This document shows, piece by piece, positions 15,263-17,497 of a stretch of 64,000 nt of DNA. The position numbers were made by a program, and so were the translations under genes. Origin of the DNA: Actinobacteria bacterium 69-20 (GTDB lineage: Bacteria > Actinomycetota > Actinomycetes > Mycobacteriales > Nakamurellaceae); NCBI GenBank assembly GCA_001897425.1, contig MKSW01000021.1, positions 1-64,000 of the forward strand. Reading direction: 5' to 3'. Position 1 is the stretch's first letter. The number at the start of each line of letters is the position of its first letter. Under the pieces are notes generated by a model. It made no database searches, was not told where the DNA came from, and saw only the letters and a program-made list of their open reading frames with translations.

Positions 15263-15640
15263 GCAGACTCCTTCGCGTGTCGCCTTGCGCCGGGATCGCC
15301 GGTCGCATCGGGCGTGGTAGGTGGGTGCGCTTTCCTCGATCCTGACACGAAAACGTGTTTTGCACGACGGCGCGGGGTTCCGACGATTTGCCTGCCTACC
15401 GTCGGACGTACGGTCGGCGCGGCCGTACATCAAAAACGTGCCTCACCATGCGCTCCGATGCGCTCCGATTCGATGGATGCGCTCCCGATCGGAGGCGCAC
15501 CCAACGAATCGGGGCGCGTCGTCGGCCGGAACCTGTGCGGCTTTGCGCGGTGCGACCGGCGATCGCTCGCCCCGAACTGCCGTTTCGACCGTCCGGCCGT
15601 AGGATCGGCCTACCGAAGTCGCCTGCGCTGGAGGGCCGTC
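15263..15640. promoter_or_regulatory. Divergent control region between bkdA and the CoxG-like gene
   Basis: 378 bp. It holds AAAAC-gt-GTTTT (15350-15361), 88 bp before bkdA and a candidate operator; a tandem ATGCGCTCCG pair (15448-15467) with a third near-copy at 15477; and GTAGG-atcgg-CCTAC (15599-15613) just before the CoxG-like gene. No ORF supported. Confidence 0.5.
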
Positions 15641-16531
15641 GTGGAACTGGAACACCGTTTCGAAGTGCCGGTCGGCATCGACAAGGCATGGATGCACCTG
15701 CTCGACATGAAATTGGTCGCCGCATGCTTCCCCGGCGCAACGCTGTCCAGCGCGGACGGTTCCGAGTACACCGGCACGGTGAAGGTCAAGCTCGGACCGA
15801 TCCAGCTCACGTACGCGGGCTCGGCGCGCATCGTTTCGGCCGATGAAGCGACACACACGGCGACCATCGAGGCGTCGGGCAACGCCGCACGGTCCGGGTC
15901 CACGGCGTCGATGACGGTAGTGGCCGCGGCCGAATCCGTGGCGAGCGACCGGACCGCCGTGACGATGAAGACGGACCTGACGATCACGGGCCGCCCGGCA
16001 CAGTTCGGCCGCGGGGTGATGGTCGAGGTGGGCGACAAGATCCTCGGCAGGTTCGCCGACTGCCTGGCGTCCACCTTGGCAGCGAGCGAGGCGCCGGGTG
16101 AAGTGGCCACGGCAGAGGCCGCCGTTTCCGAAACCGCCGGTGCCGCAGCAGGTTCCACCGAGTATGACGCTTCTCGCGCCGCGAACGCGGCGGAAGGCAC
16201 GGCTCCGGAGGAGGCGGCCGTAGGCGCGGTCCCAGAGGGGGCAGCCACTGGTGCGAAGAGCGCAGCCGCGGGGGCGGCGGAGGGGGTGGCGCGCGCGGCG
16301 GCCGGTGCCCACGCTGCGGGTGGTGGCCCGGCGACAGGCGGAGGGGCCGGTCCGGCATCCACGTACACCCGGGCGCCGGGCACCGCTCCGGCGGCGGAGC
16401 CGATCGACCTGCTCGCGTCTGCCCGCGGCTCCATCATCAAGCGCGTCGTGCCCCTCGTCGTGGCGGTGGTCGCGGTACTGATCCTGCGACGGTGTCTGCG
16501 GCACCGCCGCGCGCGGCGCGCGGAAGACTGA
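15641..16531 (+). CDS. CoxG-like SRPBCC protein with C-terminal membrane anchor
   Basis: 296 residues from GTG 15641 after GGAGGG. Residues 1-150 form a carbon-monoxide-dehydrogenase-subunit-G-like SRPBCC domain (LEHRFEVPVGIDKAWMHLLD; MKTDLTITGRPAQFGRGVMVEVGDK). Then come about 100 residues of Ala/Gly-rich linker and a C-terminal hydrophobic anchor VVPLVVAVVAVLILRR followed by Arg. CoxG proteins help maturation or membrane attachment of molybdenum hydroxylases; no coxLMS genes lie here. The linker EYDASRAANA derives from a degenerate dispersed repeat. Confidence 0.82.
   Translation: MELEHRFEVPVGIDKAWMHLLDMKLVAACFPGATLSSADGSEYTGTVKVKLGPIQLTYAGSARIVSADEATHTATIEASGNAARSGSTASMTVVAAAESVASDRTAVTMKTDLTITGRPAQFGRGVMVEVGDKILGRFADCLASTLAASEAPGEVATAEAAVSETAGAAAGSTEYDASRAANAAEGTAPEEAAVGAVPEGAATGAKSAAAGAAEGVARAAAGAHAAGGGPATGGGAGPASTYTRAPGTAPAAEPIDLLASARGSIIKRVVPLVVAVVAVLILRRCLRHRRARRAED
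16160..16192 (+). repeat. Dispersed hairpin repeat, degenerate copy in CoxG-like linker
   Basis: GAGTATGACGCTTCTCG (two core mismatches) then a strong hairpin CGCCGC-gaac-GCGGCG. Confidence 0.75.
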
Positions 16532-16906
16532 CGCCCCGGCGCGAGCCCCCCGTGTGGGTCGGTGGGGGTCCAGGATGCGGCGGGCGCGCGCATCGGGCTC
16601 GCTCCGTTCGCGTCACTTCGCAGCTGCAGTGTGCATGTAACTGGGACAAATCACCCAGATTGCTGCAGGATGCACACTCCCAAAAGGCCCAGTGTGAATC
16701 CAGCAGCGCGTGTTCGGCGTGTCGCCCTGCTGGATTCACACCCCTAGGCGGGCGCCGGAGTCAGCGCTCCCGGCCCCCATGACGGTGTGCATCCTGCAGC
16801 AGTCTGTCCAAAATGTCCCAGTTACATACACACCCGGGGAAGGCCAGCCAGGGGTTCAACAGGGTCCAGGATGCGAGGGGCGCGACGGTAGTGGAAGCAT
16901 GAGGAC
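16532..16906. other. Intergenic region with large nested inverted repeat
   Basis: 375 bp before the nitrobindin-like gene. It contains no credible ORF but carries the nested inverted repeat at 16630-16832 described separately. Confidence 0.7.
16630..16832. repeat. Nested three-stem inverted repeat (about 200 bp)
   Basis: Three concentric pairs. Outer: 16630-16648 with 16814-16832 (18 of 19 match). Middle: 16661-16677 with 16785-16801 (17 of 17). Inner: 16692-16706 with 16727-16741 (15 of 15) around a 20-nt loop. Spacing between outer and middle stems is identical on both arms (12 bp), so each arm is a diverged 48-bp unit. It could be a MITE-like remnant, a paired operator, or a structured leader RNA. 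Confidence 0.85.
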
Positions 16907-17497
16907 ATGAGCGACGAGTTGGGACCCCTGGAGCAATTTCTCGGCTATTGGGAAGGCAACGTCGGCGTCGACGTCTCCTATCACAACAAGGAAGACGAGA
17001 CAGCCGAGACCGGCTACTTCGAGAAGGCCCGGTTCACGCCCATTCCGATCGTGGAGAACGGCCAGCAGACCATGCACGGCCTGAACTACGAGATGACGGC
17101 CTGGCGGCACGGCGAGGAACAGCTCGACCCGTTCCACGACGAGGTCGGCTACCTGCTGTGGGAGCCCTCCACGAGCACCGTGCTGCGCTGCTTCGCGGTG
17201 CCGCGCGGGCTCGCGATCCTGGCGGGCGGCACGGCCCGGCCGGACTCGAAGTCGCTGACGTTCATCGCAGAGCCCGGCGATCCCACCTTCGGACTGGTGC
17301 AGAACAAGTACCTCGCCCAGCGGGCGCGCACCGGCGGCAAGTTCGTCTCCGAGTACACGGTGCACGACGACGGAACGTTCAGCTACACCTCGGATCTCCA
17401 GCTCACCCTCGCCGCGATCGACCAGACGATGCACCACACCGACCGAAACACCTTGCACCGCACCGGAAGCGACGTGACCTGGCCGCACCGGCTCTGA
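16907..17497 (+). CDS. Nitrobindin-like / FABP-family heme-binding beta-barrel protein
   Basis: 196 residues. The N-terminal LGYWEGNVGVDV corresponds to the family GxWxGxG motif; EVGYLLWEP follows, and the C-terminal HHTDRNTLHR contains the likely heme-ligand His. Nitrobindins are ten-stranded barrels that bind ferric heme and react with NO and peroxynitrite. Whether this member binds heme is inference from the motifs. ATG 16907. Confidence 0.82.
   Translation: MSDELGPLEQFLGYWEGNVGVDVSYHNKEDETAETGYFEKARFTPIPIVENGQQTMHGLNYEMTAWRHGEEQLDPFHDEVGYLLWEPSTSTVLRCFAVPRGLAILAGGTARPDSKSLTFIAEPGDPTFGLVQNKYLAQRARTGGKFVSEYTVHDDGTFSYTSDLQLTLAAIDQTMHHTDRNTLHRTGSDVTWPHRL

Follow-up and report, generated by a model that had tools for sequence, protein, structure and literature searches.

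A lineage-restricted, REP/BIME-like family of intergenic repeats in two Nakamurella species, with a putative recognition role at transcript ends

REP-like repeats are known mainly alongside RAYT transposases, and their benefit to the host has long been debated. Published REPs lie between convergent or same-direction genes, downstream of coding regions, and occur as singles, dimers or clusters of alternating units (PMC3733652, PMC2817692), whilst REPINs are duplicated by RAYTs and their singlets decay (PMC8049555). Here we describe a nested inverted repeat in a 64,000-nucleotide stretch of DNA (the window) from a host genome taken to be that of a Nakamurella species. Rather than a single structure, the repeat is made up of a reversed A unit, a B unit and a forward A unit (Table 1), all belonging to a dispersed family of 49-50 bp repeats, and the nesting arises because the A units face each other around B. 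Like the REP/BIME elements of gamma-proteobacteria, this family consists of short intergenic repeats of alternating orientation, found in convergent and same-direction gaps and at gene 3' ends.

Direct reading and a repeat search both placed three concentric stem pairs at 16629-16833, confirming the nested repeat described in a sequence-only reading of the window, together with its equal spacing of outer and middle stems (12 nt on each arm). Read as a single pair of 49-nt arms, the outer and middle stems are 84% complementary, and RNA folding of a 261-nt stretch gave -140.7 kcal/mol (z = -9.8), a stability reached by 0 of 200 shuffles. The same reading held that no ORF lies inside; mechanical ORFs do cross the repeat (for example 16492-16782), but none looks coding and the gene caller leaves the interval intergenic.

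Table 1. Features of the window cluster and its neighbourhood, and one cassette locus elsewhere in the host genome (positions are those of the window unless a locus is named).
Feature	Position	Strand	Evidence or remark
CoxG-domain gene, upstream, 3' end towards cluster	15458..16531 (start approximate)	+	Pfam PF06240, E=3e-16; gene call
Outer stem	16629-16648 with 16814-16833		19/20 bp paired
Middle stem	16661-16677 with 16785-16801		17/17 bp paired
Inner stem	16692-16706 with 16727-16741		15/15 bp paired
A unit (49 nt), reversed, GTGTGCATCCTGCAGCAATCTGGGTGATTTGTCCCAGTTACATGCACAC	16629..16677	-	Model R1, E=1.1e-12; nearly identical at the sister's matching site
Spacer (14 nt) between facing half-sites	16678..16691	.	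Spacer census; family mode 14-15
B unit (50 nt), two inverted half-sites around CGCGTGTTCGGCGTGTCGCC	16692..16741	+	HMM B match; orthologous sister cluster without B
Spacer (43 nt) following B unit, containing a small GC-rich inverted repeat	16742..16784	.	
A unit (49 nt), forward, same direction as flanking genes	16785..16833	+	Model R1, E=5.2e-14
Nitrobindin-like gene, downstream, start 73 bp past cluster	16907..17497	+	Pfam PF08768 THAP4_heme-bd, E=3.3e-21
Direct repeats and cassettes	L094:3541-6085 (G000:C22:55.5-58.1k)		

When the feature was searched against the host's own genome (4.48 Mb in 43 contigs, 98% complete), 68 matching pieces were recovered from more than 20 places. These were collected and profile searches iterated, which defined the A (49 nt) and B (50 nt) units, and the family was found to form ~37 clusters, with ~64 copies of A and a dozen of B; the search for other copies proposed in the earlier reading thus led to related units at dozens of loci. 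Within the fetched regions, profiles matched 62 A and 12 B units in the host; for a sister genome the figures were 69 A and 9 B (~78 units). A few A units that reach 68 nt by carrying a second half-site are included in the B counts. A model built on the sequence of A alone gave 67 matches in the host genome; 64 scored at least 41 bits and none fell between 41 and 22 bits, and this empty interval indicates that decayed relics of A are absent. The half-site GTGTGNRTNCWGCAG had 76 exact matches genome-wide, compared with 0 for a reversed control pattern.

A units share the motif GTGTGnRTnCTGCAGCA ... GnCC ... TCCCnGTTnnAynCACAC at fixed spacing and follow the grammar h(15 nt)-17-k'(17 nt), often continued by 4 nt and an inverted h'. 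Clusters contain one to four units in equal or opposite orientation, with facing half-sites h' and h most commonly separated by 14-15 nt; further spacers measure 24-27 and 40-53 nt, and spacers of 43-45 nt recur after B units at other loci. A third unit type, with B-like half-sites and a different core (GGCGAAACGGCCCTGGGGCC), was seen at L134:4875-4924 (G000:C33:672.4k). Some units also have in common a further 5' extension of ~50-70 nt (GGGGCGTGGGTTGACTGGGGCG...GGGGCTCCGTGCGGGG; L018:4508-4580, L018:5668-5735, L009:4731-4782 and L083), which suggests a longer ancestral element. Within 100 bp of clusters, a second short motif is enriched, GGCTCGCT(T/C)CGCTCGC (for example at L094:3575-3590 and at 16598-16613 of the window), the 8-mer CTCGCTTC by 28-fold.

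When 84,980 species genomes were scanned with the B-core pattern, matches came solely from contigs of the MAG Nakamurella sp. HJP_bin23, which was taken to be the sister (G003). Among 200 genomes of the order, including 17 Nakamurella, only host and sister carried the family, which was absent from the 15 other Nakamurella and 183 other genomes searched. Searches of plasmids, phages and viral contigs returned no match, and a phage or plasmid origin was dropped on these grounds.

According to a simple codon-usage gene caller, from which all gene neighbours were taken, the clusters are intergenic, any overlap with a called gene being 15 bp at most. Across both species, 60 clusters had two called neighbours, and these were convergent in 25 cases, same-direction in 33 and divergent in 2 (9 further clusters with one neighbour missing fall outside this tally). 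Relative to cluster-free gaps of at least 150 bp from the same host regions, host clusters avoided divergent gaps (2 clusters versus 27 cluster-free divergent gaps, Fisher p = 0.0005) and preferred convergent ones (p = 0.002). Orientation was also biased: between same-direction genes, the unit nearest the downstream gene pointed along transcription at 18 of 19 host loci (p = 8e-5), and the distal unit was co-directional at 11 of 14 sister loci, the host and sister sets not being independent. On a larger scale, 30 of the 43 host contigs (~1.8 Mb, C1, C2, C6 and C11-C14 among them) carry zero clusters, far fewer than a uniform spread of ~37 would place there. With dnaA at C33:557,299 in the host, marker positions in three complete Nakamurella genomes showed cluster-bearing and cluster-free contigs intermixed along the origin-terminus axis, and chromosomal macrodomain marking was rejected, this mapping giving no simple origin-terminus pattern.

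When flanks were compared, a sister cluster was found at the corresponding site for approximately 33 of 36 host clusters, with one more added later (~34/36); these matches were read manually and a few rest on one flank. Inside the clusters, units have been gained, lost or swapped between the species. In orthologous alignments, divergence was 4.2% for core columns, 27.3% for variable columns and 27.4% for flanking intergenic sequence, and when core columns were set on half of the host loci and tested on the remaining half, the corresponding values were 4.4%, 26.9% and 23.2%. As the core is constrained and low-scoring relics are absent, this comparison argues for purifying selection on the sequence motif, possibly with some contribution from gene conversion, which, if continuous among copies, could itself mimic core constraint.

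At the window cluster, the sister has an inverted, extended A unit in place of B, whilst the reversed A unit on the outside has changed very little. The earlier claim of perfect maintenance does not hold for the nested stems, since the middle unit has been exchanged and the arms do not covary; the broader view that conservation implies function agrees with the constraint on core columns. Close to this cluster the sister (L075) lacks ~430 bp corresponding to 16885-17322 of the window. The missing segment takes in the first 139 codons of the nitrobindin-like gene, and a breakpoint lies ~55 bp away from the cluster. A 23-nt direct repeat, GGGTCCAGGATGCG (91% identical), lies on both sides of the window cluster at 16566-16588 and 16862-16884.

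Structure itself does not appear to be what is kept. The column pairs of highest mutual information within units were neighbours rather than base pairs, facing arms were no more alike than shuffled pairs at variable columns (indeed slightly less), an RNAalifold search found no compensatory pairs, and the outer helix scored no better than shuffles; with none of these four covariation tests positive, conservation of base-paired stems was rejected. A single unit folds weakly and alike on both strands (z about -1.2), no U-tract or terminator-like site was found, and an Rfam search gave no match at gathering score, its one chance miRNA match falling far under the cut-off. Because covariation is absent and single units fold weakly, we place the constraint on sequence. 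Given arms that do not covary and a middle unit exchanged in the sister, the long hairpin is a side effect of repeated half-sites and of how the units are oriented, and not the selected object. The invariant columns do permit short GTGTG/CACAC stems, for which a structural role is possible.

The family itself, its location and orientation biases, its positional conservation and the constraint on its core underlie our leading explanation, to which we attach roughly even confidence: the window holds three clustered units of a lineage-restricted, REP/BIME-like family that forms a putative recognition site at transcript ends. We infer both protein binding to the units and an effect on transcript ends. 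Each A unit would present recognition motifs at fixed spacing and, with clusters at gene 3' ends and operon boundaries, the units would most likely be read there by a sequence-specific DNA-binding protein or a transcript-reading factor, which once bound would alter how transcription or supercoiling ends at the boundary. The long hairpin would arise merely when two A units face one another, with selection keeping something else. A more ambitious version, in which the units are candidate sites for a sequence-specific protein marking transcription-unit ends in one actinobacterial sub-lineage, as a genome-wide boundary system gained in the ancestor of the two species and strongly constrained since, is offered tentatively and is rather improbable as a whole. 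Such recognition sites have to be weighed against an action at the RNA level, whereby the units form transcript hairpins that stop transcription or shield mRNA 3' ends. The 3'-end position, co-directional orientation and very stable folding of the whole cluster would suit hairpins of this kind, but stems lacking covariation, arms slightly less alike than shuffled pairs, units that fold weakly and equally on both strands without a U-tract, and a long hairpin that tandem clusters cannot form all make this account unlikely. A structured RNA or operator serving the nitrobindin-like gene, as first proposed for the repeat, is ruled out in its gene-specific riboswitch or operator form by the same units at unrelated loci, beside dozens of unrelated genes and, in 25 of 60 clusters, between convergent ones.

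Could the units instead be non-autonomous mobile repeats, of the REP/REPIN or MITE kind, that a transposase spreads or has recently spread? Dispersed multi-copy intergenic units in inverted and tandem pairs, their gain, loss and swapping inside clusters, and the GGGTCCAGGATGCG repeat flanking the window cluster (16566, 16862) would fit, but nearly all clusters occupy orthologous sites and decaying singlets are missing, in contrast to REPINs, whose singlets are mostly decaying remnants (PMC8049555). Moreover, the Y1 transposase (PF01797) had no match in the 98%-complete host genome, on which basis RAYT-mobilised REPs were rejected. A direct repeat does flank the window cluster, but it stands 28-40 bp away from the units, occurs in the sister as well and was not seen at other clusters when sought, which speaks against a target-site duplication. 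Mobility in general is thus an improbable account, and the specific suggestion of a MITE remnant is rejected in view of shared sites in both species, the lack of decayed copies and the constrained core. Very unlikely, in our assessment, is a role as recombination or cassette sites, with units serving as direct repeats or recognised sites for the gain and loss of cassettes, often toxin-antitoxin. At L094/L082, a PIN/Phd cassette and an AAA_14-DUF4143 cassette lie between three ~110-bp direct repeats, each made of a 60-nt leader and an A unit, where the sister carries another PIN module; at L011/L084, B+A units delimit an 814-bp PemK/MazF-type segment that is extra in the host. At both loci, the breakpoints of the gene-content differences are unit ends. 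Ordinary homologous recombination between dispersed repeats is nevertheless enough to explain both loci, and most clusters stand beside ordinary genes with unchanged cassette content. A toxin-antitoxin association was likewise set aside, being suggestive at a few loci whilst PIN genes are not clearly enriched (2 of 50 within 1.5 kb of clusters versus ~1.4 expected).

That the core is preserved at matching gene ends in both species points to a functional DNA or transcript-end signal, not to a dead mobile element. With ~37 defined loci at fixed positions in two species, and no Y1 match in the host, the question of host function becomes directly testable; the constraint on the core is measurable (5-6-fold), and the family is tied to transcription direction.

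Integron attC sites carry conserved GTTRRRY/RYYYAAC boxes. The Nakamurella units are likewise imperfect palindromes that sometimes bound toxin-antitoxin cassettes, but these boxes were not seen in them by eye and most copies bound no cassette. With MITEs, which are characterised by terminal inverted repeats, a target site duplication and related transposase ends, the family shares dispersed non-coding inverted repeats, yet its copies showed no conserved terminal inverted repeat plus target duplication, and its clusters vary in unit number and are conserved in position. Inverted pairs around a short, diverse spacer (14-15 nt) recall REPINs, from which the family differs in having no Y1 transposase (RAYT) match in the host and no decayed copies found. 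In location it resembles the REPs defined by GTAG/CGTC tags, being intergenic, downstream of genes and in convergent and same-direction gaps, but its units measure 49-50 nt and start GTGTG, as opposed to the 20-40 nt palindromic units of those REPs, and have no GTAG/CGTC end. As in BIMEs, which are also characterised by binding of gyrase, IHF or Pol I, alternating units form mosaics with recurrent spacers (14-15, 24-27 and 40-53 nt); the family departs from REP/BIME elements in its two unit types, its sites and core conserved across sister species and its non-covarying variable arm positions. Overall, the family is best regarded as a new REP-like variant, restricted to this lineage, for which the evidence of constraint is strong.
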